Shown: positions 256 to 28,605 of the stretch, piece after piece
How the letters are laid out: each line of letters begins with the position of its first letter
Numbering within the stretch: the stretch's first letter is position 1
IMG/VR virus record: IMGVR_UViG_3300032240_002045
Coordinates: 1 to 64,000 of that record
Reading direction: 5' to 3' (one strand)
DNA: 64,000 bases
Origin: a virus
The notes under the pieces: generated by a model
Database searches by the model: none
What the model saw: only the letters and a program-made list of their open reading frames with translations
Told to the model about the DNA's origin: nothing
Translations under genes and position numbers: made by a program

Positions 256-1554
256 TTATGCCCAAGAAGTCATTGTGACTGTTGCTGATAGAGCTGTTGA
301 GGCTGTACCCGCTGCAATTGACTGTGACTTGACTGTGCCAGAAGCACCTGTGAGTTTTGTACCAGGTGTGATAGCGCCTGAGTCGGCAACTGTCCATCCT
401 GAACCTGCAATAACAAGTGTTGTTCCTGAACCACCGGTTACAGTCCAAGTACCAACAAGTGCTGCTGGGATACCTGTACCTGTAGCGATAGTTACCTTTG
501 TACCTACTGGCCATGTGCTTGTTCCGCCAGAGACGGTTACAGTTGCGGCAGTAGTTGTTGTTACGTTGATCTGTGTTGGCTGTGTAGCTGTATTTGTAGC
601 GCCAGTTGTATTTGTGATGTTAGCTGTAGCAAATCCAGCGTCCTTAAGGGAGTCAAGACCAAGAGCGGTTGTGAGACCAAGGATTGAAGGAACGTCGATG
701 TAAGCAACGCCTGATACGTAAGCTCCGTCAGATGCTGACAGTGCTGTAGCAAGCTGAACTTTACCGCGCTGTCCTGTAAGAAGACCTGCGTTAGCTGAGT
801 TAGTTACTGTGAACTTAAGAGCATCTGCTGAAGCAACAGTTGCTGCTGAAAGATTGTAAGCTCCTGCTGTAAGGCCTGTGATATCAACTGAGTCGTTCTT
901 TGCAAGCTTGTTCTGTGCTGTGTAAGTAACAGTTGTTCCATCGCCTGAAACTGCTGTAACCATGTAGTTACCTGCAGCTGGTGTAAATGATGGGTACCCG
1001 CCCCAACCTGTTTCATCAAGTTCGTGGTTACGTGTTGGAACTGTCTGAGTGATTCCGTTGTTTAGTGTCTTTGAGATTCCCGCAAACTCTAAACGAGCTC
1101 CAGTAACTTGAGTTGTAGCTGACCAACCCGCGTCCGCACCAAATCCTGAAAGGGATCCAACAAGGACCTTAGCAATACCTGACTGTGAAGAATCTGAAGT
1201 TGAACCTGAGTTAGTGACGGTGAAACCTGTGTAAGCACCAGCTGAACCTACAAGGGATGCAATCTTTACATCTGTAAGGTTACCTGCTGCGGTAGTAAGG
1301 CCGGAAATAGTTACGTTCTGACCAACTTGAAATGTGTTAGCAGCTGTGTATGTGATGGTTGTGCCATCGCTTGAAGTCGCTGTTACTACAGCTGTCTTGT
1401 AAGAAACTAGATTTGAACCTGTTGTTCCGCCAATATTGGACGCAGCTGTTTCTGTGCGTTCATCGTTTGGCTGTAATGGGAAATTTCCCCATACGTAATC
1501 GATAGCTGGGGATCCAGCGGTATCTAACGTGTGAGCGTTATTGTTTGTTGCCAT
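256..1554 (-). CDS. Virion structural protein, beta-rich repeat protein (fibre-like)
   Basis: 432 residues, Thr/Ser/Ala/Gly-rich and free of cysteine, as in extracellular virion fibre or decoration proteins. A roughly 55-60-residue module is repeated at about residues 56-116 and 199-253 (pattern DGTT-I/V-TYTA ... ITGL ... FTVTNS), with a weaker third copy near 337-385. The N-terminus has IDYVWGNFP, a motif I associate with phage structural proteins but cannot assign to a named family. A similar module appears at the end of the baseplate J-like protein (55858-57573). It is the last gene of the leftward structural operon; a promoter-like sequence lies in the 110-nt gap upstream. Confidence 0.6.
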   Translation of the reverse strand: MATNNNAHTLDTAGSPAIDYVWGNFPLQPNDERTETAASNIGGTTGSNLVSYKTAVVTATSSDGTTITYTAANTFQVGQNVTISGLTTAAGNLTDVKIASLVGSAGAYTGFTVTNSGSTSDSSQSGIAKVLVGSLSGFGADAGWSATTQVTGARLEFAGISKTLNNGITQTVPTRNHELDETGWGGYPSFTPAAGNYMVTAVSGDGTTVTYTAQNKLAKNDSVDITGLTAGAYNLSAATVASADALKFTVTNSANAGLLTGQRGKVQLATALSASDGAYVSGVAYIDVPSILGLTTALGLDSLKDAGFATANITNTTGATNTATQPTQINVTTTTAATVTVSGGTSTWPVGTKVTIATGTGIPAALVGTWTVTGGSGTTLVIAGSGWTVADSGAITPGTKLTGASGTVKSQSIAAGTASTALSATVTMTSWA

Positions 1555-1608
1555 TTAAATGACCTATTTCTCTAGAGTGGTTAAGCACCTGATCGGGGTG
1601 CAAGTACT

Positions 1609-1637
1609 ATTGTCTAAGAGGATTTAATCTTTGTCAG
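1609..1637 (-). promoter_or_regulatory. Putative minus-strand promoter
   Basis: On the minus strand CTGACA (1632-1637) and GACAAT (1609-1614) are 17 nt apart, five and four matches to the sigma-70-type hexamers, and lie upstream of the 256-1554 gene. It sits in one of the few real gaps between leftward structural genes. Weak evidence. Confidence 0.3.
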
Positions 1638-1664
1638 GTCTAGTATTGGACCCCTTTTAAAGGG

Positions 1665-2654
1665 CTAAAGTCCTTTTATTTCAAAGTAATATGCTTTAAA
1701 GTCTATACCGGCTTTTGTTTGGTAATCATCTAACAGTTCTTTTGTGGGAGACCCCCAATACCCCAATATCTCCCCTGTTGCAATCTTTTTAGCCCTAACT
1801 AAAGACGCATGGTAATTGCCCCACAGCTGCTCATTTTTTGACTTATCTGGCACGTTTGTTGATGTGCGCCAATCTTTTTTGTCTGGGTCTCTGCCTAATT
1901 TGTTTTTATGAAGTAACAAAGTATCTTTTATAGAAAAAATTCTGTAACCACGAGTCCATAGCCGTATAGCATACGAAAGCTCTTCACCTTCAAATACCAA
2001 CATAGGATCCGGCAGTACGTCTTCTAACATCGATATTGGTCCAAAAACGTAATGACCAACAATTGTGTACTGTTCAATAAACCCGTTTGGATGCTTTGAC
2101 CAATCAACCGATACAGGGCCTGCGCTAACGGATTTAACAAAATGATTTGGGTCATACGGCTTAAATTCTATTTTTCCATTGTAAATAGTGTCTGTTTTTA
2201 TGTAATTATACGGATCTATAAAATCTCCGTTATGAAGGCGCGGCTTATCCTCAGCATCACCGTACCAATAAGGGACGTAAGCGCTAATAATAGCTTTATC
2301 TATATTGTTAACTTTTAAAATATTTTTATAATTATTGACTATATCCGTGTCCCAGTGTTTTTCAAAAATCATATGAGCATCAACTTGCAAATGATAATTT
2401 TGTTTTCTATCACCTATTAATTGTGAATACATTCTGGCTTTTCCAACACCTAATGGGCCGCCATAGGATAACTTTATGTGGTTTATATTTAAAGTTAAAT
2501 TATCAAGATCATGATCGATTGGGTAAAAATCATGGGTAATTATGTCAAAATAAAGATTTTCGGGAACGTCAGCTGATATTAATGCACTCTTAATAGTTTG
2601 ATGAAGATCGCGCTCATTGCATGCAGAAATTGTTAAAAGTATAGTTTCACTCAT
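1665..2654 (-). CDS. Glycosyltransferase, GlcNAc-transferase family (Skp1 Gnt1-like, PF11397 type)
   Basis: 329 residues with a GT-A nucleotide-sugar fold: N-terminal strand ETILLTISACNER, a family-typical GPLGVGKAR segment (residues 67-74), a DxH metal-binding motif inside LQVDAHM (D92, H94), and the acceptor-side segment FEGEELSYAIRLWTRGY (221-237). These segments in this order are those of the cytoplasmic GlcNAc-transferase family that includes the Dictyostelium Skp1 hydroxyproline GlcNAc-transferase. The family call is from memory of motifs; donor and acceptor are not known. It overlaps by 8 nt the 2647-3366 gene and is two genes from a 2OG-Fe(II) hydroxylase. The likely role is glycosylating a virion or host-surface protein. 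Confidence 0.72.
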   Translation of the reverse strand: MSETILLTISACNERDLHQTIKSALISADVPENLYFDIITHDFYPIDHDLDNLTLNINHIKLSYGGPLGVGKARMYSQLIGDRKQNYHLQVDAHMIFEKHWDTDIVNNYKNILKVNNIDKAIISAYVPYWYGDAEDKPRLHNGDFIDPYNYIKTDTIYNGKIEFKPYDPNHFVKSVSAGPVSVDWSKHPNGFIEQYTIVGHYVFGPISMLEDVLPDPMLVFEGEELSYAIRLWTRGYRIFSIKDTLLLHKNKLGRDPDKKDWRTSTNVPDKSKNEQLWGNYHASLVRAKKIATGEILGYWGSPTKELLDDYQTKAGIDFKAYYFEIKGL

Positions 2655-3366
2655 TTTTGGTTATTACCTTTGGGCTTTGTGGGTTTGGCGGTAAAAGTTT
2701 TCCTAAAGATTTTTTGTATAAATTTGGAAACGATTTAAACCCAGGCTCATTTAAAGATGATCGCAAGTTAGAGTATTCTTCTACTTCTTTGTTCAACTCT
2801 TTAGTTACAGGGGCAATTATGAACGCTGTTGAGTTTAATAAATTTATTGGGTAGTTAAAAATAGTTACGTAGGGGGTACCAGCTTTAAATACCACCGGGA
2901 CATTTGGAACCATCATTTGCCAACAATATTGAATTTGATTAAAATGATTGATGTCAGACCTTAATAATGCAGACATCGGTGTAGCGCCTTCTACAAAATG
3001 ATTGGCAGGACCCTGAAGCAACAGGTAATGATCTGGGTCTGTTTCAATGTACGAATTTAAATAAAAAGTTATAGTCCCATTAGCGGTGGTTGTATCAACC
3101 AAACGCTGCCCGTTAGGAAGAAACTCACCTTTTAATATTTTTACATGGTCTTTGCTTGTGTCTCTCACACCATCCCACATTACTTCAACGTCTTGTGGTA
3201 GCAAGAACTCCCACCCATGCCGGTTTGCCATGGACATGGGTTGACATCTATAACCATGCCCTTCAATAGTGTTATCTAAAAAATCACGTTTGATAGGGGC
3301 GGGTCTAACAACCGGGTAAGAGCACGACGGATCAGATGACCATATTTTTATATATGGCTGGATCAT
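2647..3366 (-). CDS. DUF6065-like protein between hydroxylase and glycosyltransferase
   Basis: 239 residues, soluble. The segments YPVVRPAPIKRDF, GYRCQPMSMANRHGWEFLLP and VMWDGV, and the tail VPVVFKAGTPYVTIF, resemble the DUF6065 family (assignment from memory). That family often lies beside 2OG-dependent oxygenases in phage and bacterial genomes, and its function is unknown. Here it is sandwiched between a prolyl-hydroxylase-like gene (overlap of one base at 3366) and a GlcNAc-transferase-like gene, so all three are probably translated together and may act on the same substrate. I see no catalytic motif that would define a reaction. Confidence 0.55.
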   Translation of the reverse strand: MIQPYIKIWSSDPSCSYPVVRPAPIKRDFLDNTIEGHGYRCQPMSMANRHGWEFLLPQDVEVMWDGVRDTSKDHVKILKGEFLPNGQRLVDTTTANGTITFYLNSYIETDPDHYLLLQGPANHFVEGATPMSALLRSDINHFNQIQYCWQMMVPNVPVVFKAGTPYVTIFNYPINLLNSTAFIIAPVTKELNKEVEEYSNLRSSLNEPGFKSFPNLYKKSLGKLLPPNPQSPKVITKNE

Positions 3367-4079
3367 TAAGCTCTTTTTGTTCCATATTTGTTTGTAACAT
3401 CTTTTGGATGATATGTTGGCGATTCGTTACGATGAGCAAATTCATTTCTATCGGTCATAAGAACTAATGAATACTTAAAGCCATCGTCAGTCACAGGTTC
3501 AGCGGAATGTTCGTATATAAATGAAGACGGAAAAAGAACAACATCTCCGGCTTTAGGCTTGTATGTTAAATCAAATTTTGGAAAAGTTAGCTCTCCGCCC
3601 TCATAATCATCATTTGGGTATCCAACTACCGAAACGGTGCATCTGTAGGCTTCTCCATCATCCGTGTGTACTTTAAAGAATTCACCTTTTCCGTAACGAA
3701 CAATATTAATACACTCATAGTAATCAATGTAGTTTAAAGAGTGTTTTTGTAAATAATGAGACATGCAAATTTTAACAATGTCGATAAATTGTTCGTACAA
3801 TAAACAAAAGTCTTCGGAGTCATCGTCTCTAGGCCCTAACATGCCATCGTTTTTAATTTTAAAGTCTTTACACTTACGGCTTTCATCATCCTGCCGGTCG
3901 TAACTTAAATACGCAGATTTCCAAGCAAAACGCGTACCATCTTTAGCTAATCCGGTTTCAATGCGGTTAACTACGTCTAACTCTTCAATAATGGCATTAT
4001 GGTAAACATAAATTCCAGGAGCTACTTCTTCAAAATCTACTTCCCACTCTTGGTTATGGCAATAAGTTTTTTCTATCAT
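3366..4079 (-). CDS. 2OG-Fe(II) oxygenase, prolyl 4-hydroxylase-like
   Basis: 237 residues with a C-terminal double-stranded beta-helix. The iron triad is H138-x-D140 (VHTDDGE) and H191 (YEHSAEP), and K202 in GFKYSLVLM is placed to bind 2-oxoglutarate. The run GGELTFP...KPKAGDVVLFPSSFIYEHSAEPV is characteristic of P4Hc/PKHD-type hydroxylases. Such enzymes hydroxylate peptidyl proline or other side chains using O2 and 2-oxoglutarate. The gene opens a three-gene unit with the DUF6065-like and glycosyltransferase genes and lies about 0.5 kb downstream, in transcription order, of a fibre with Pro-Gly-Phe repeats, a plausible but unproven substrate. Confidence 0.85.
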   Translation of the reverse strand: MIEKTYCHNQEWEVDFEEVAPGIYVYHNAIIEELDVVNRIETGLAKDGTRFAWKSAYLSYDRQDDESRKCKDFKIKNDGMLGPRDDDSEDFCLLYEQFIDIVKICMSHYLQKHSLNYIDYYECINIVRYGKGEFFKVHTDDGEAYRCTVSVVGYPNDDYEGGELTFPKFDLTYKPKAGDVVLFPSSFIYEHSAEPVTDDGFKYSLVLMTDRNEFAHRNESPTYHPKDVTNKYGTKRA

Positions 4080-4104
4080 TTTACGCTCCTTTTATTTAAC
4101 TAAA

Positions 4105-4338
4105 TTACCATTTTCCAATTGGGCATACTGAATCTTGAAGTTTTACTTTTAAACTCATTAAACATCCGCATTTTTTGCATTGACGCGTTATAGGTATAAG
4201 TTCTGGGCACGTTTTGCAAATATTAAGTCTGGTAGCGGCAATATCCTCTGTAACTCTTAATTCTCCGCTAAGTATATGCCAAGGGCGAGTGGTTCCTAAA
4301 TTTTTTTTATACTGTTCCCAAGGAGTTAATTCAGACAT
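4105..4338 (-). CDS. Small zinc-ribbon phage protein
   Basis: 77 residues. The C-terminal half carries ICKTC ... QCKKCGCLM ... SVCPIGKW, six cysteines in a pattern common in small phage proteins from marine and freshwater viruses, consistent with a zinc ribbon. The N-terminus (PWEQYKKNLGTTRPWHIL) is also typical of that group. Function unknown. It sits between the hydroxylase and fibre genes and may be part of a tail-fibre or modification module. Confidence 0.65.
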   Translation of the reverse strand: MSELTPWEQYKKNLGTTRPWHILSGELRVTEDIAATRLNICKTCPELIPITRQCKKCGCLMSLKVKLQDSVCPIGKW

Positions 4339-4341
4339 AGG

Positions 4342-4548
4342 TTACTCAATTGGTGGGACAAACGTTGAGCCATCATAAGTCCATCCCGGTAAAACTTCCA
4401 AACCATCTGGAATTGATACAAATTTTGGATTTGAAGCCATGCCCGCGTCCATTCTAGGGCCGTAGTTATTAGATACCTCATCGGAGTCAAAGCTGAAAAT
4501 GGTAAAAACATCTTCACCCGCAACACCTGCATAACGTTTCCAAGTCAT
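4342..4548 (-). CDS. Hypothetical protein with fibre-tip-like C-terminus
   Basis: 68 residues; the end LPGWTYDGSTFVPP resembles the terminal segment of many small phage tail-fibre or assembly proteins (W-x-YDG-x-x-F-x-P). No catalytic motif. A Shine-Dalgarno-like AAGGAG lies upstream and the gene is in the run 5721-3366. Function unknown. Confidence 0.5.
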   Translation of the reverse strand: MTWKRYAGVAGEDVFTIFSFDSDEVSNNYGPRMDAGMASNPKFVSIPDGLEVLPGWTYDGSTFVPPIE

Positions 4549-4581
4549 AATTATCTCCTTTTTAAAAGTTTAACATAAAAG

Positions 4582-5721
4582 TTAAATTGCGCAAAGTGCT
4601 CCGCCATCTTGGCAACCATAGTATGGAGGTGGGCAAGGACGGCGACATCCGCTTGTAAAGCCAGGGTCAACAGCAAAGCCGGGATCAACAGCAAAGCCGG
4701 GATCAACAGCAAATCCAGGATCAACAGCAAAGCCAGGAGAAGTAAATCCAGGAGAAGCAAAGCCAGGATCAACAGCAAAGCCGGGAGAAGCAAAGCTTGG
4801 AGAACTAAAGCTTGGGGCGGGAGCAGCTGGTGTCACGCTGTTAGATGCTGGGCTGTCAATGCTTGTTCCATTAGCATTTGTTGCTTTTATTTTAAAAGTG
4901 TAGGCAGTTCCATTAGTTAACCCGGTAACTGAAATTGGGCTAGTTGTGTTAGTTCCGGTAAATGACCCGGGCGTAGAAGTGGCAGTAAACAGGCTAATTG
5001 ATTTCCCACCTGTTGAGCTGGAATCGCCAGGTATAGTAAAACTGACACTTGCTGAAGTATTACCAGCAGTAGCCGTTGGTGCAGACATAGTTTTCGGAAC
5101 AGTGGTTGCTTGGATAGACAAAGATGAAGAAGACTCAAGTGAGTACCCATTTACATTTTGAGCGGCGGTTGTTACTGAATAGTAAAGTCCTGAGGATAAT
5201 CCACCGACAGTTATGGATAATCCTGAAGATGTGTTAGTAAATGCCCCAGGGGATGTTGTAGCTCTGTACTGAGTAATGGCACTTCCGCCAGTATTAGGGG
5301 CCGTGTAAGTTGTCGTTATTGCACCATCACCCCAAGCTCGCGCAGTTCCCACATCCACAGCATTTGGTGTTCCCATAGTTTGAGGGACTGTTGTAACCGT
5401 AACTGACCCGCTGTAACTTGCAAATAAACTATCACCTGCGTCGTTTGTTGCAACACCAGTAAAAGTGTAAGGGGTAGCAGATACTAAGCCAGTTACTGTT
5501 TGCGTTAACGAAATGCTTGGGGTAGACGTATAAGAAGTTGGGTTTGAGATAGCTTTATAACTTGTTACTGGTAAACCGCCATCCCAAGAAGGTGCGGTAA
5601 GCACTACATCTACACGCCCATCGTTATATGCGCGACCGGTACCAACATTAGTTGCGGAAACAACTACTGGAGAATCTGGCACTTCACGGCTAGAGGATGA
5701 GATAATTCCAATTGATGGCAT
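4582..5721 (-). CDS. Tail fibre-like protein: FN3-like domains plus Pro-Gly-Phe repeat tail
   Basis: 379 residues. Three consecutive fibronectin-III-like beta domains occupy about residues 18-300 (repeated S/TPG-AFT or -SFT, T-V-x-GL-x-x-G/A-x-x-Y and T-VPxTM linkers). A tail follows with eight PGF units joined by AVD, AS or TS, preceded by two PSF units, and the protein closes with a Cys/Pro-rich end (CRRPCPPPYYGC). FN3 domains on phage structural proteins are thought to aid surface binding. The proline-rich tail lies next to a prolyl-hydroxylase-like gene and a GlcNAc-transferase-like gene, making it a candidate target. Confidence 0.68.
   Translation of the reverse strand: MPSIGIISSSSREVPDSPVVVSATNVGTGRAYNDGRVDVVLTAPSWDGGLPVTSYKAISNPTSYTSTPSISLTQTVTGLVSATPYTFTGVATNDAGDSLFASYSGSVTVTTVPQTMGTPNAVDVGTARAWGDGAITTTYTAPNTGGSAITQYRATTSPGAFTNTSSGLSITVGGLSSGLYYSVTTAAQNVNGYSLESSSSLSIQATTVPKTMSAPTATAGNTSASVSFTIPGDSSSTGGKSISLFTATSTPGSFTGTNTTSPISVTGLTNGTAYTFKIKATNANGTSIDSPASNSVTPAAPAPSFSSPSFASPGFAVDPGFASPGFTSPGFAVDPGFAVDPGFAVDPGFAVDPGFTSGCRRPCPPPYYGCQDGGALCAI
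4657..4797. repeat. Tandem coding repeat (Pro-Gly-Phe units)
   Basis: Near-identical 15-18-nt units (core GCAAAGCC-GGGATCAACA, with GGAGAA variants) run through this stretch and encode the PGF-AVD/AS/TS tail of the fibre gene. Such tracts are prone to slippage, so unit number may vary between isolates or be mis-assembled. Confidence 0.85.
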
Positions 5722-5728
5722 GATTACC

Positions 5729-6478
5729 TTAAGCTAACGATAAGTCTCCGACTAGCGCCCAATTATCAGCGTTGTCGAGCTTAATTAGGGTCGCAGATGA
5801 GTATTGAGCACGAAGGTAATAACCCGGTGTTCCTACAATAGAAGCGGTTCCCGCGCCAATAATTTGAACTTTTCCAGCACCCCTACGAAAAATATTAATT
5901 TGCGATCCCTGCGGAAAGGCAGTTGTGCTATTTGCTGGAACTGTAATTTGTAAATTAGAAGCGCTGTTTACAACAATTAAATTGTTTTTATCAGTTAAAG
6001 CTATTTGATACGCAGTTGTTTGGTTGTTAATTGCAAGATCTGGCGGGGTTACCGTTCCTACAAAAGCTCCGGAGGAGTTAACGTAAGATAATACAGTTGC
6101 TGAGGAATTTTGGAATTCAAGGAGATTAGCTGATTGTGACGCTGCCCCTTTTACAATAAGCCCTTTAGTTGTAGAGGCTCCAACCGTAATTACGTTAGCT
6201 GTGTCCCCAGCTTTACGGAGGTATTGTGTATGAGCGTCAGATACAACGCCAACTTCAAGATTGTTGAGGCGAAGACCTACTGTGGAAAATAAGGTAGATG
6301 TTCCATTAAAGGTTCCACCAGAACTAGGTGTGGTTGAACGATTTGGCTCTGTTCCAAGAGTGTTCTCAATAGCAATAACTTCAGCTTGAATTGAGTTAGG
6401 GTGAGAAGCGTCGATAATATCGACCACGTTAATTTTGTCTAAAAATCCCGCAATTGACGTTGGAAACGATGCCGCCAT
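5729..6478 (-). CDS. Tail fibre / minor tail protein
   Basis: 249 residues. The N-terminus (FPTSIAGFLDKINVVDIIDASHPNSIQAEVIAIENTLG, read in pieces) is a frequent N-terminal module of phage fibre proteins that attach to the tail, with a later DAHTQYLRKAGD segment typical of fibre shafts. The C-terminal part is a small beta domain (LQITVPANST...FPQGSQINIFRRGAGKVQIIGAG) common at fibre tips. Start is supported by an AAGGAC Shine-Dalgarno. It probably takes part in host binding. Confidence 0.65.
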   Translation of the reverse strand: MAASFPTSIAGFLDKINVVDIIDASHPNSIQAEVIAIENTLGTEPNRSTTPSSGGTFNGTSTLFSTVGLRLNNLEVGVVSDAHTQYLRKAGDTANVITVGASTTKGLIVKGAASQSANLLEFQNSSATVLSYVNSSGAFVGTVTPPDLAINNQTTAYQIALTDKNNLIVVNSASNLQITVPANSTTAFPQGSQINIFRRGAGKVQIIGAGTASIVGTPGYYLRAQYSSATLIKLDNADNWALVGDLSLA

Positions 6479-6542
6479 GGTTGTCCTTTCAAAAAACTAT
6501 GTCCTACCTTAGAGGAAATGACCTTGCTTTTGTCCCTAAACC

Positions 6543-6704
6543 TTAGCTTTGATGCTCTCCATTTGGGCCTTTACCTGGCATTGCGTAAATTCCGCCAATA
6601 CTTGGCTTTTCATTTTCGTTAATAAAAAACTTTCTAATACCAAAACGAGAATCATTTACAGTGATTGGCTTTTCAACTGAGCTTTTAAACTCTATGCCCC
6701 TCAT
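6543..6704 (-). CDS. Hypothetical 53-aa protein
   Basis: A 53-codon frame beginning MRGIEFKSSVEKPI and ending GPNGEHQS. Its ATG overlaps the stop of the gene at 6701-6868 as ATGA, the usual coupling signal in this genome, which is the main support. Middle segment SRFGIRKFFINENEKPSIGGIYAMPGKG. No family recognised. Confidence 0.6.
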   Translation of the reverse strand: MRGIEFKSSVEKPITVNDSRFGIRKFFINENEKPSIGGIYAMPGKGPNGEHQS

Positions 6705-8409: not shown

Positions 8410-8591
8410 TATTCATCTCCTGGGTTTCTAAGTCTAAGGGTTATGCACCATACGACAAATGATGCAAGGGTTACTTTTCCAATAACCGTTTTTGCTGAGC
8501 CTGTAAGGACAAGCCAAGCTGAAAATAATCCAACAAACGTCCAAATTTCTGAAAAGAAATCTTTGGATATGTCTTTAAAAAATTGTTTCAT
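8409..8591 (-). CDS. Small two-TM protein, holin-like
   Basis: 60 residues with two short hydrophobic helices (IWTFVGLFSAWLVLTG and KVTLASFVVWCITL) separated by a basic turn, and a charged C-terminus. It is joined to the 8068-8409 gene by a one-base overlap and to the upstream secreted protein by another. A second holin or pinholin partner is likely from size, topology and position only. Confidence 0.6.
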   Translation of the reverse strand: MKQFFKDISKDFFSEIWTFVGLFSAWLVLTGSAKTVIGKVTLASFVVWCITLRLRNPGDE

Positions 8592-11554
8592 TAATTAAAT
8601 CTCCTCCGTATAGCGGCAACTACGACAGTTATAACTAAAATCTTTTTTGCTTTTTTACGAGTTACTGGGGACATGTCGTTTCCGATATTCGCAAGAGCCA
8701 CATAAGCTTGATTAATAGCTTGTGCTGCGGCGCCAACGCCTGGTAGAACATCTAATGCTGCGGGTAATTCAACAGGTACTAATTCTACAGGGACTGCAAT
8801 ATCTGGTGCATTAAAAGTAGTGCCTCCGGGTTGACCGATAAATGTGTCCTCTGTAGTAATAGCTTCTGGTGGAATTGGGTCACCTGATCCTGGTGCTGGA
8901 GCCGGCGGTGTTAAGTTGCCGTCTTCACCAACAACTTGCGGTGCTGTTTGAGTACCAAAGAATTGAATACCGCCATTCTCAACACCTGTAACATCTACTT
9001 GTATATGTGGAATTAAAATTTCCGCTGGCGCTGGTTTTGGAATATCTGTAGGCAATTGAGCTGGGTTATTAGGTACAAGACCAATAGCCTCAAAAGCTTT
9101 AATCTCAGTTTTAGTTAAGTAAGTTTCGGGAGCAACAGCTGGTTTCCAAGTCTCTGCTGTAGTATCCTTTGTAACTTCTATTACAACGGGAGGTTCAGGT
9201 GCAGGAGCGGGAGCTGGTTCTGGCGCAGGTGGCGGACCTTCTGGTGTTGGTGGAGGGTCTGCGGGTGTTTCAGGTGCGGGCGCAGGGTCAGGTTGAGGAG
9301 TGGGTATTTCCTCTGGAACGGGCGCTACGTCAGGTACGGGAGGTTGGTCAGGCCCTGTATCGGGATCCGCAACAGGTGGCTCCTCTGGTTGAGCAGGAGG
9401 CTCTGGTTGAGGTTCTGGAGCCACAGGAGCAGGCTCTTCAACGGGAGCGGGCTGTTCTACAGGAGCTGGCTCAGGGGCCACTGGTGGAGCTGTAGGCGAT
9501 GGATCAGGATTTAGGACCGGAGATGGCTCCGGAGACGGCTCAGGCATTGGAGAGGGCTGCTCAACGGGCGTTGGCAAAGGCTCTGGAGAAGAAGGCACAG
9601 CAGCAGCAGCAGCAGCAGCCTTAGCCGCATCGGCTGCCGCTTTATCTGCGGCTTGTTTAGCGGCTAATTCGTCCGCTGCTTTCTTATCGGCTAATGCTTT
9701 TGCTTCTGCAGCAAAACGTTCTTTTTCTGCCGTTTGAATAGCCGATACCGCCACGGTTACTTTTGTAACTGCGGACTCCGCAAATTGATCAGCGGTAGTG
9801 ATAGCTGAGGCTGTAGCTGTTGTTAAAGTTTGAGCAGTTGCTTGAATAACCGTTAAGTTTTCTTGAGATTTTGTTAAGTTTTGTTGAGCGACTACTAGGT
9901 TTTGTTTAGCGGTAGCCAAATCTTGTTGTGCTTGATCATAAGCAGTCTGTGCTTGAGCAATTGTTGCTGTTCCAGTATTTGCAGCATGTATAGCATTTTG
10001 CCATGATTCGTAGGCAGCATTTCTTTCAGCAAGCTTTGTATCGTATGCAGCTTGTGCGTCTGCAGCAGCTTGAGATGTGACGGGCACAGCTGCTTGCGCG
10101 GATGTAAGGGTTTGAGTTGCTGTAGCAAGGGAAGTTTGAGCGCTTGTTAACTGTTGGTTAGCTGCTACAAAAGTAGCAGATGCGGTATTAGCAGCAGCAA
10201 CCAATACAGGGTCTTTAGTAACCACTGTGGTTGCAAAAGCGGTATTCATTGGGTTAGTCCAATAACCAGTTCCATCAGCTCTAGTAATGCCCCAACCAAG
10301 TGTTACGTTTGCCCCACCACCATTTTCGTAGTACCAAAGAATAAAATCTTGTTGCTTATCTGTAGTTGTGTTGTACGTAGGCGAGAACTGACTCCACGTT
10401 GGGCCTTGGTCTCTCCAGTTATTAATAGCAAGTTGACCATCTATGTATAGCTTTGATCCATCATCTGAGTACACGCCATATTTAACCGCCACCGCTTCTT
10501 CTGGAACGGTAATGGTTCCTTCATATTTAATAATAACTCGATCACTACGAACACCCAAAACAACTCCGCTACCCCAACTTGCAGAAATGTATGGAACTGT
10601 TGTTGTTAACACAGGTGTTGCGTTTGCGTCAGGAATTGCGGGAGCGGCTCCTCCGTTATAAGTATATGCAGAGGCTTTCACACCATTAGTTGTGACTGTT
10701 ACGGAAGATGCTTCCGCTGCTGCTTTTGCTGCGGTGGATGCGGCTGTAGCGGCATCGACTGCAGATTGTTGATTTGCAACGTTTGTAGTAGCGACCTCTA
10801 CAACTGTTTGAGCAACTGGCACTGCCGCCACTGCCGCATCTGCTGCGGCTTGAGCTGGTGCAATTTGGTCATGCACGGGACCAAGCTCGGCGTTCTTATT
10901 ATAAAAATTAACGCAAGCAGACCCTGGTGCGCAAGAGGCTGCTGCATCTAAAACTGGTTGAGCTTCTTGTGCTGTAGTTAATGTTGTTTGTGTATTAGTA
11001 ACGGTTTGCGTGGCTAGTGCTACCACCGCTGTTTTATCTACAACTACAGCTGTGGCTGTATCAACAGAGGCTTGCGCGGCGGCAACCAGAACAACAGCCG
11101 TTGCTGCTGATTGCGCTGTTACTGTAGCTGTTTCTACTGCGGTTGTTGCGGCAACAATTGCTGTATGCGCTTCTGCTATTGGGGTTGCTGCAACGGTTGC
11201 AGAGGCGGGTGCGGCACTTGTAACAGCTGAACTTAGTGCTACAGTTGCGGTCTCTATTTTACTTTGAACGGAGGCAATTGCTAATGTGGCAGACTGTGGT
11301 GTACCCGTTGTTGAGTTTTGTTGCTGGGTGGGTTGTGGGTTTGATACAGGGGCACTACCCTGAACGGGAGAAGTCACGGTCGCTGTATCAGATGTTGCTG
11401 AAGGAGCAAGAGAAATCACAATACCTGGAGCAGAACCAGTGGAAGAATCAGGGCTAACTTGAACTGTAAGTTCGTCGGCCTTAGCGCCGTGTTGCCCAGT
11501 TAAATAAAAGAAAATTGCAACAAACAAAGTTGCATAAAAACGTGATGATTTCAT
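8591..11554 (-). CDS. Large secreted protein: signal peptide, Ala-rich coiled coil, PA14 domain, Pro-rich stalk
   Basis: 987 residues. Residues 1-26 look like a Sec signal peptide (KSSRFYATLFVAIFFYLTG, then AKA-DE). An Ala/Thr/Val/Gln-rich helical region follows to about 285, then a PA14-like beta domain at about 291-432 (VYSDDGSKLYIDGQLAINNWRDQG) with a Cys pair at 208/214 before it, a second coiled coil (450-650), a roughly 135-residue PEP/PAP-rich stalk (654-790), and a C-terminal domain ending in KKAKKILVITVVVAAIRRR. The stalk is of a length that could span a cell wall. It is cotranscribed with the lysis genes. Role unknown: surface adhesin, exclusion factor, lysis accessory or virion appendage. 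Confidence 0.7.
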   Translation of the reverse strand: MKSSRFYATLFVAIFFYLTGQHGAKADELTVQVSPDSSTGSAPGIVISLAPSATSDTATVTSPVQGSAPVSNPQPTQQQNSTTGTPQSATLAIASVQSKIETATVALSSAVTSAAPASATVAATPIAEAHTAIVAATTAVETATVTAQSAATAVVLVAAAQASVDTATAVVVDKTAVVALATQTVTNTQTTLTTAQEAQPVLDAAASCAPGSACVNFYNKNAELGPVHDQIAPAQAAADAAVAAVPVAQTVVEVATTNVANQQSAVDAATAASTAAKAAAEASSVTVTTNGVKASAYTYNGGAAPAIPDANATPVLTTTVPYISASWGSGVVLGVRSDRVIIKYEGTITVPEEAVAVKYGVYSDDGSKLYIDGQLAINNWRDQGPTWSQFSPTYNTTTDKQQDFILWYYENGGGANVTLGWGITRADGTGYWTNPMNTAFATTVVTKDPVLVAAANTASATFVAANQQLTSAQTSLATATQTLTSAQAAVPVTSQAAADAQAAYDTKLAERNAAYESWQNAIHAANTGTATIAQAQTAYDQAQQDLATAKQNLVVAQQNLTKSQENLTVIQATAQTLTTATASAITTADQFAESAVTKVTVAVSAIQTAEKERFAAEAKALADKKAADELAAKQAADKAAADAAKAAAAAAAVPSSPEPLPTPVEQPSPMPEPSPEPSPVLNPDPSPTAPPVAPEPAPVEQPAPVEEPAPVAPEPQPEPPAQPEEPPVADPDTGPDQPPVPDVAPVPEEIPTPQPDPAPAPETPADPPPTPEGPPPAPEPAPAPAPEPPVVIEVTKDTTAETWKPAVAPETYLTKTEIKAFEAIGLVPNNPAQLPTDIPKPAPAEILIPHIQVDVTGVENGGIQFFGTQTAPQVVGEDGNLTPPAPAPGSGDPIPPEAITTEDTFIGQPGGTTFNAPDIAVPVELVPVELPAALDVLPGVGAAAQAINQAYVALANIGNDMSPVTRKKAKKILVITVVVAAIRRRFN
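9598..9621. repeat. CAG triplet run encoding poly-Ala
   Basis: About seven consecutive GCA/CAG triplets in the secreted-protein gene encode an alanine tract just before the Pro-rich stalk. Possible slippage site. Confidence 0.7.
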
Positions 11555-27123: not shown

Positions 27124-28605
27124 CTATTTATCTTCAAGCGATTGACGAATAATCTCCGTCGTTTGAGCTTCATTAAGACCACCGTTTGGTAGTTCTCGAA
27201 GAGCTTGAGCCTTATCTCCAAAGATAGAAGATAGCACTCCCGCTGACCCGCTTTTTTCTACAGTCATACGGATAAACTCTTTTGATGAACCCATATCGTT
27301 AAGTTTTCCAATCAAACTATAAAGTCTATCGATCTCTTGTGAAAGGTTTGGATCTGCGTATCCGCCGTTCATTTCTTCAGCAAAACGCATAAAAGCGACC
27401 CTTTGACCCTGCATTTCAATGATTGCATTAAGTAAACCTTTAACCTGTTCAGTCGTCTTTACCTCTACTGGAAGCTTAAATGCGCACACTGATTGAGGTT
27501 TAAAAGCTGGACAATTAGAAGCTACAAAACAAGTGTCACACACCCTAAGACTGGTTGATTGTGACTCCAAAATAGTAACGTCTTTGATGACATCATTACC
27601 ATCACCATCTTGCTCAACAACAGATTTTTGAGTGTATCCAAAGACCGGTAAATTGCCCATTTCCTCTGGAGTTCGGGGTTCAAGTTTCCGCATCTGGACC
27701 CCCCTGTTATCAGCTACGGGAGGGGTAGTTTCCCCACTTTGCTCCACTTCACTCCCCCCACTGTTATCATATAAGAAGTCGTCATCAGGCTCGTTAATCA
27801 TCTTGTTCATCCTCATTTCAAACTGTTCATATGACCACACCGCTAATCTACAAACCTCTTGATCATCATCTTCTAAGATTTTATCGGCATCAAGTCCGGC
27901 TGTTCCGTAGATATGGTTGTACCTCATCCGAGCTTGATCTTTCATCTTCTTGGGGTAACGTACCAGACGTGAGCCATCCCAAATAATAGTTTCCCCGTGC
28001 ATCATAGGTGATAGCCACGACAATGTGCTGGCGGTCTCTACCTTGACCTGCCGTAGGTTGTCAGGCTTGGCACAGCCTAGTGCGTGAAACCTAGTTCCGT
28101 CTTGAATAGCGTGAGCTCTGGTTGCCGAGGCAAGCATGCTGTCTGCCTCTATGGCCTCTCCAGGAATGGCTATGTCTAAATATGTATCTACCAACCTTTT
28201 TAAGCCTCGTAGGCCGCTTTGTGGGTTCCATACGGGCTGGAATTTGCCCGGTGGTACCTCCGCCCAAGCTGTCTTACGTTGAGCCTCTACAAATTCTGGG
28301 CTAATGCGTTCACCATTAATCTCCGTAAACACAGTCAAACGATCAATATTGTTGGCTATAAAGTTTTCGTAATTAGCTGCAAATTCTTCTAATTCAATTG
28401 TCGACAAATTGGTATTTTTAGGAATCCCAGGGTGAACATAAATATAACTGTCTTTAGAAAAGTAGTTGTCCAACATATAGTCACTCTTTTTTGGCAAACC
28501 TCGCTTGACCAAACGCCAAAAGCTAACGCCGACATGGTTAGCGGTGGTTGACTCTAAGAGTAGACGGTTAGAAGGGACTTCCGCCCCTAGGTAAATAATC
28601 TTCAT
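27124..28605 (-). CDS. Conserved actinophage protein, TGT/DpdA-like barrel plus Cys4 tail (tentative)
   Basis: 493 residues. N-terminal half reads like a TIM barrel of the tRNA-guanine transglycosylase/DpdA group: IYLGAEVPSNRLLLE, DIAIPGEAIEADSM, TRFHALGCAKPDNLRQVKVETASTLSW, then ETIIWDGSRLVRYPKKM. The C-terminal half has a four-Cys cluster (CDTCFVASNCPAFKPQSVC) and helical segments. The barrel idea rests on memory of motifs, and no other 7-deazaguanine gene is seen. Conserved in actinophages as an unknown protein next to the following HAD-like gene. The palindrome TTGTCGACAA occurs in its coding sequence near 28398. Confidence 0.5.
   Translation of the reverse strand: MKIIYLGAEVPSNRLLLESTTANHVGVSFWRLVKRGLPKKSDYMLDNYFSKDSYIYVHPGIPKNTNLSTIELEEFAANYENFIANNIDRLTVFTEINGERISPEFVEAQRKTAWAEVPPGKFQPVWNPQSGLRGLKRLVDTYLDIAIPGEAIEADSMLASATRAHAIQDGTRFHALGCAKPDNLRQVKVETASTLSWLSPMMHGETIIWDGSRLVRYPKKMKDQARMRYNHIYGTAGLDADKILEDDDQEVCRLAVWSYEQFEMRMNKMINEPDDDFLYDNSGGSEVEQSGETTPPVADNRGVQMRKLEPRTPEEMGNLPVFGYTQKSVVEQDGDGNDVIKDVTILESQSTSLRVCDTCFVASNCPAFKPQSVCAFKLPVEVKTTEQVKGLLNAIIEMQGQRVAFMRFAEEMNGGYADPNLSQEIDRLYSLIGKLNDMGSSKEFIRMTVEKSGSAGVLSSIFGDKAQALRELPNGGLNEAQTTEIIRQSLEDK

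Follow-up and report, generated by a model that had tools for sequence, protein, structure and literature searches.

We describe a two-way genomic association between a prolyl 4-hydroxylase (P4H)-like oxygenase and tail proteins with proline-aromatic repeats in uncultivated viruses, found from a gene cassette in a 64,000-base stretch of DNA (here the window, bases 1 to 64000 of a 97,993-base IMG/VR virus record). With moderate confidence, we interpret the cassette as one for post-translational maturation of a virion tail protein. An initial annotation had placed at positions 1665 to 5721 a hydroxylase, a DUF6065-like protein, a glycosyltransferase (GT), and a repeat-bearing fiber; all are present as placed, on the minus strand, together with two small open reading frames (ORFs; a DUF6171 protein and one of 68 residues) that it did not mention. 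The gene order is tail protein, fn3 repeat tail protein, 68-residue ORF, DUF6171, hydroxylase, DUF6065, and GT, with the last three touching or overlapping at their ends. The phage is likely a myovirus, as the window codes for baseplate-wedge and tail proteins, and its host may be an actinobacterium, as suggested by a WhiB-like gene.

Association of the hydroxylase with tail repeats

An alignment of six hydroxylases retrieved 80 viral loci, with 34 dereplicated loci having at least 2 kb of upstream sequence. An ORF with Pro-x-aromatic repeats was found less than 4 kb upstream of the hydroxylase in 32 of these 34, so that repeats nearly always accompany the conserved enzyme. Such ORFs were rare in the comparison sets: 2 among the 255 remaining genes of these loci, 3 among 948 genes from loci with only a GT of the GT60 type, and 2 among 1018 from Pro-Thr loci lacking the hydroxylase. 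Most of the hydroxylase loci also have DUF6065 behind the enzyme, as a rule in two copies; the loci with NPGF repeats had no recognizable DUF6065.

The reverse search retrieved viral contigs by DNA pattern alone, blind to the enzyme, and counted dereplicated usable loci. Among the matches listed, a strong hydroxylase lies less than 5 kb downstream in 55 of 73 FFPPFFPPFF loci (52 of the 73 have DUF6065), against 4 of 62 loci for the control pattern PTPTPTPTPT (Fisher p = 4e-17 for the hydroxylase linkage of FFPP versus PTPT). All five dereplicated PGF[ND]PGF[ND]PGF loci (5/5) have a hydroxylase less than 5 kb downstream.

Identity and catalytic residues of the hydroxylase

The window hydroxylase (positions 3366 to 4079, minus strand) passes the Pfam family PF13640 (2OG-FeII_Oxy_3; 50 bits versus a cutoff of 27, E = 4.8e-13) and belongs to phrog_61, the 2-oxoglutarate (2OG)-Fe(II) oxygenases (1e-23), and its nearest solved relatives are Bacillus P4Hs (3itq/5hv0; E = 7e-5, and 3e-5 in a profile search). 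The full H-D-H-K set noticed in the initial annotation corresponds to H138, D140, H191, and K202, that is, the HxD...H iron triad and the 2OG-binding lysine, all four unchanged in 158 of 158 dereplicated viral homologs, where E122, N125, Y129, G142, N156, G162, P184, S185, and G200 are also invariant. Lysine at the 2OG position is of the P4H type, and the further 2OG oxygenases found downstream in many operons mostly have arginine there. Hydroxylation of peptidyl proline is the activity predicted for this P4H-like enzyme. Hydroxylases next to different repeat classes are 31 to 61% identical to each other, and their neighboring repeats differ yet all keep a proline near an aromatic residue. In L014, L020, L064, and L070 (L numbers designate the retrieved loci), the region downstream of DUF6065 codes for several more 2OG oxygenases plus SDR, FkbM-type methyltransferase, or glutathione (GSH)-peroxidase-like genes, suggesting several successive modifications.

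Repeat composition and target residue

The putative substrate in the window is an fn3 tail protein (positions 4582 to 5721, minus strand; Pfam fn3, 4e-12, and PHROG tail matches) whose C-terminal part contains Pro-x-Phe repeats. The eight Pro-Gly-Phe units counted previously are there, plus two Pro-Ser-Phe, giving 10 P-[GS]-F units at residues 303 to 355 (positions 4657 to 4815, minus strand), a crowding (10 Pro-x-aromatic motifs within 60 residues) that none of 2000 whole-protein shuffles matched (0/2000). Each unit spans 5 or 6 residues around Pro-Gly-Phe (AVDPGF/ASPGF), and homology and gene position lead us to infer hydroxylation of proline in these units. A collagen-like fiber was considered for the window and rejected, as Gly-X-Y triplets were not found in the repeat.

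Across the hydroxylase loci the repeats are of the types DPGF, PNF, PPTFTA, PPGFFA, NPGF, and FFPP, and the upstream tails include FFPPFFPPYFPP, PPGFFAPPGFFA, NPGFNPGF, PPTFTAPPTF, FPPHFPPHF, and PNFPNF. The 59 distinct repeat tails are 36% proline, 35% phenylalanine, and 5% tyrosine, with an aromatic residue at most 2 residues after most prolines. As the FFPP repeats consist almost wholly of Pro, Phe, and Tyr, few other residues could be targets, and proline is the likely one.

Several loci (L016 4255-5523, L021 3229-4512, L064 658-1962, L068 5488-6786, and others) have a Hint/intein-like domain after the Pro-aromatic repeats (for example, CIDGETRILTSDRGYVPAKEIEVGDKVLTIDP), with a weak Pfam Hint_2 match for the repeat tail protein of L064, a hint that the tail tip may undergo self-cleavage or ligation.

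DUF6065

The protein coded at positions 2647 to 3366 (minus strand) is a true DUF6065 member, as had been proposed (PF19541, 113 bits versus 26.6, E = 1.4e-32). Its AlphaFold2 model (pLDDT 85) suggests a dUTPase-like beta-clip fold, with Foldseek matches to dUTPases at E = 2e-4 (TM score of about 0.6 on the target and 0.37 on the query), and a profile search against PDB gave a weak match (E = 0.07) to Wsv112, a viral dUTPase. Pfam gave no dUTPase match at E ≤ 1; the catalytic motifs were viewed by eye only. Our best guess is a reused beta-clip scaffold that binds the substrate or the enzyme, and DUF6065 is a candidate partner of the hydroxylase. The association described above provides this family with its first functional context.

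In bacteria, a DUF6065 gene of Sinorhizobium pSymA (L429, 7959-8690) lies just downstream of genes for autotransporter beta-barrels, another case of adjacency to a surface protein; none of the DUF6065 genes on Sinorhizobium plasmids was seen beside a hydroxylase.

Glycosyltransferase

The last gene of the cassette (positions 1665 to 2654, minus strand) codes for a GT60-type glycosyltransferase that matches PF11397 (GlcNAc; 83 bits versus a gathering cutoff of 21, E = 2.9e-23), which bears out the family that the initial annotation had named. The AlphaFold2 model (pLDDT 92, pTM 0.92) has a GT-A fold. Foldseek ranks human GalNAc-T2 first among its matches (E = 6e-12), ahead of TarP/TarS and Toxoplasma GalNAc-T3. 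Polypeptide GalNAc-transferases act on peptides, a point in favor of the tail glycosylation proposed below. D92 and H94 (the DxH motif) and H249, presumably equivalent to the Mn ligands of the GalNAc-Ts, are conserved in the window and unchanged in 40 of 40 phage GT homologs. A single-sequence search found no PDB relative for this GT, and its profile matches to retinol-binding proteins were judged spurious because their coverage was limited to a short stretch at the C terminus. With one GT or DUF6065 protein as the query, scans of viral contigs gave no matches, and alignments were required.

GT60 genes are common in phages without a hydroxylase and were found in only 4 of the 73 FFPP loci, among the matches listed, so the GT is an accessory, or optional companion, of the hydroxylase module. 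Among 81 dereplicated phage GT60s placed in a tree, one clade (SH-aLRT 100) has 9 of 12 rows beside a hydroxylase or DUF6065, the other 3 being near weaker 2OG oxygenase homologs, while 0 of 64 are so linked in the main other clade. The loci with hydroxylases at least 50% identical to that of the window are L006, L007, L008, L010, L011, and L090. Four of them (L006, L010, L011, and L090) have a GT60; the contigs of L007 and L008 stop just past DUF6065, so the lack of a GT60 on them carries no weight.

PF11397 includes the type of GlcNAc-transferase that acts on the hydroxyproline (Hyp) of Skp1, and by analogy to this Gnt1 type we would infer a UDP-GlcNAc donor and a Hyp acceptor for the window enzyme. 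Another possibility, which we consider less likely, is that the hydroxylase matures the Pro repeat and the GT60 targets Ser/Thr of the tail, another virion protein, or a host wall glycan. Such a role would fit the GT60-based retrieval, in which 79 of 80 loci lack a strong hydroxylase, and the jumbo phages XacN1 and RAS14, where GT60 has no adjacent hydroxylase; it would also fit a fold resembling both GalNAc-Ts for Ser/Thr peptides and the wall teichoic acid GlcNAc-Ts TarP/TarS, and the Ser or Thr present in the repeats of the window, L010, and L090. It agrees less well with the separate clade formed by the hydroxylase-linked GT60s, with the Skp1 Hyp GlcNAc-transferase type within PF11397, and with the GT-bearing loci L006 (PNFPNF) and L070 (FFPPYF), whose repeats are nearly devoid of Ser/Thr, which makes Hyp the likely acceptor there if the repeat is the GT target.

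Proposed maturation of the tail tip

We propose that, in late expression, the P4H-like oxygenase would use Fe(II), 2OG, and O2 to hydroxylate the fn3 tail protein on prolines of its C-terminal Pro-Gly-Phe repeats, assisted by DUF6065, probably a noncatalytic partner with a dUTPase fold that would hold either the enzyme or its tail substrate. Next, the GT60-type enzyme would most likely add N-acetylglucosamine (GlcNAc) or another N-acetylhexosamine (HexNAc) to the hydroxyl of Hyp on the same tail, and the modified tip would serve in adsorption, stability, or protection. The initial annotation had suggested both hydroxylation and glycosylation of this tail or of another virion protein. The hydroxylation half is well supported and extends beyond this phage, and hydroxylation of the tail repeat is quite probable; GlcNAc on Hyp is consistent with the data, and glycosylation by the neighboring GT is plausible, our opinion being nearly balanced and leaning slightly to doubt. 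A role in host range or immune-type evasion is speculation. More broadly, and tentatively, many uncultivated phages may have Pro-aromatic tail tips hydroxylated by dedicated sets of 2OG oxygenases along with DUF6065, with the sublineage that includes the window capping Hyp with HexNAc through the linked GT60 clade, a prokaryotic-virus counterpart of the P4H-Gnt1 pathway.

Several points weigh against this interpretation. Synteny is not proof of an enzyme-substrate pairing, fiber and hydroxylase could be inherited together as a block, and dereplication was done by sequence similarity, not by phylogeny. The similarity of the hydroxylase to PDB structures is modest (7e-5). In the fibers of the relatives, 22% of whole-protein shuffles reach 6 Pro-x-aromatic motifs because these proteins are so rich in Pro and Phe, so the association draws on gene position and the reverse search and not on motif order alone. 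Of the four Pro-Thr positives, three (L389, L406, and L415) carry their repeat within a tail-type protein that precedes the hydroxylase, and the rule may be a Pro repeat of any kind in this tail protein and not specifically a Pro-aromatic one. As for the GT, it is missing from most hydroxylase loci, meaning that glycosylation is not a general step, and the window GT60 is on a long branch whose exact place in the tree is uncertain.

The 2OG oxygenases could instead modify another residue, protein, or small molecule, with adjacency to the fiber reflecting a shared late or host-range operon. The additional R-type 2OG oxygenases and the SDR, FkbM-methyltransferase, and GSH-peroxidase-like genes of many loci, superfluous for simple proline hydroxylation, speak for this, and so do the numerous cyanophage 2OG oxygenases, some of them away from fibers. 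We regard it as improbable, given that the Pro-repeat association holds in both directions and is weak with Pro-Thr repeats or phage genes generally, and that the FFPP repeats offer essentially Pro, Phe, and Tyr alone. A chance neighborhood of unrelated mobile accessory genes is very improbable, being refuted for the hydroxylase-repeat pair by an order of tail protein, repeat tail, hydroxylase, and DUF6065 kept in dozens of divergent loci, and argued against for GT60 by the clade result.

The tail-type proteins of the three Pro-Thr loci lie at L389 6923-8734, L406 3642-5801, and L415 6042-7586 (minus strand); the hydroxylase downstream is more divergent, and L406 carries a GT60 as well.

Comparison with known systems

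That no described phage uses this two-step chemistry, as the initial annotation had it, holds in the searchable papers, the nearest precedents being from eukaryotic viruses (mimivirus L230 and PBCV-1 P4H); the literature searched, with few subscription papers and preprints, contained no account of the repeat link or of Hyp glycosylation in a phage. Mimivirus L230 is a bifunctional lysyl hydroxylase-glucosyltransferase that hydroxylates and glucosylates viral collagen (PMC9614988). Both systems involve a virus-encoded 2OG hydroxylase and a GT, acting sequentially on a viral repeat protein, but L230 is from a eukaryotic virus, modifies lysine and not proline, places glucose on hydroxylysine, is a single bifunctional protein, and has a collagen G-X-Y substrate. 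PBCV-1, an algal virus, also has a P4H (Eriksson 1999, cited in PMC9301287). Like the window hydroxylase, this enzyme was reportedly proposed to act on viral Pro-repeat proteins; its repeats are different, and no GT or DUF6065 is known to be linked to it.

The cassette also resembles the PhyA-Gnt1 pair of Dictyostelium and Toxoplasma, a P4H followed by a PF11397-type GlcNAc-transferase acting on Hyp (the Pfam match bears on the family link). The Dictyostelium pair, with PhyA as the prolyl hydroxylase, modifies Skp1 (PMC9485057). That pathway serves cytosolic O2 sensing through one proline of Skp1, while the phage enzymes would act on a structural repeat with a putative Hyp acceptor. The polypeptide GalNAc-transferases (GT27) are the nearest solved fold to the window GT and share the DxH metal motif, but they form a separate Pfam/CAZy family with Ser/Thr acceptors.

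Aquatic phages commonly carry P4H and other 2OG oxygenase genes as "auxiliary metabolic genes." Viral P4HA was abundant in a metagenomic study, where its viral use "remains cryptic" (PMC9301287), and Phold found EGLN3 to be the human protein that phage proteins matched most often, named without a substrate (PMC12774648). The two-way link turns a cryptic phage P4H into a testable enzyme-substrate hypothesis. If true, it would explain the purpose of the abundant phage "prolyl 4-hydroxylase" genes and reclassify many supposed metabolic genes as virion maturation genes, and, as the reaction needs O2, tail maturation would be linked to oxic growth. It suggests that these phages finish their tail tips chemically, in much the way that collagen and cell wall proteins are finished in animals and algae, and that prokaryotic viruses may glycosylate Hyp.

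Distribution and cultivated analogs

The module is viral and essentially uncultivated. No DUF6065 was found by tblastn in a collection of 50,697 isolate phage records, and 84,980 bacterial and archaeal genomes yielded a single match, on a phage-like contig of 5.3 kb that had been binned into a Chitinophagaceae metagenome-assembled genome, with the order fn3-FFPP, two hydroxylases, and two DUF6065, whence the viral assignment. Looser cultivated analogs are cyanophage 2OG-Fe(II) oxygenases (PHROG 61; for example, those of S-CAM9 and S-SCSM1), which belong to the same superfamily as the window hydroxylase and are also beside tail fibers, but are only about 25 to 37% identical to it and come from isolates, in which DUF6065 was not found. 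The tail fiber of S-CAM9 (L433, 603-6095) has collagen-like GPTGPT repeats and is followed by two 2OG oxygenases, and the short tail fiber of S-SCSM1 (L424, 4069-5334) is Pro/Arg rich (APFNFRAPVPF/RQPRNF) and flanked by seven. As isolated cyanophages, both are cultivable test systems.

Other features of the locus

Preceding the repeat protein in the window is a tail/fiber protein of 249 residues (positions 5729 to 6478, minus strand; PHROG minor tail protein, 3e-16), and a counterpart ending in ...RxQxSSAT...W...GDLxA occupies the same place in L006 to L008, L014, L064, L070, L071, L090, and L431, among others. Between the repeat protein and the hydroxylase, both on the minus strand, are the 68-residue ORF (positions 4342 to 4548), with no Pfam match, and the DUF6171 gene (positions 4105 to 4338; Pfam, 3e-8), coding for a small Cys-rich, zinc-ribbon-like protein. 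A DUF6171-type ORF is in the same slot in L006, L007, and L008, and in 15 of 164 loci with a strong hydroxylase. No terminator-like sites were found at positions 1400 to 6600, which is below the shuffled level, and promoter-like sites in that region barely exceed it.

Elsewhere in the window, positions 8591 to 11554 code for a 987-residue protein with a PA14 domain and low-complexity stretches (Ala-rich and Pro-rich), close to an endolysin with CHAP and peptidoglycan-binding domains, and the protein at positions 27124 to 28605 matches the PHROG queuine tRNA-ribosyltransferase (1.5e-49).

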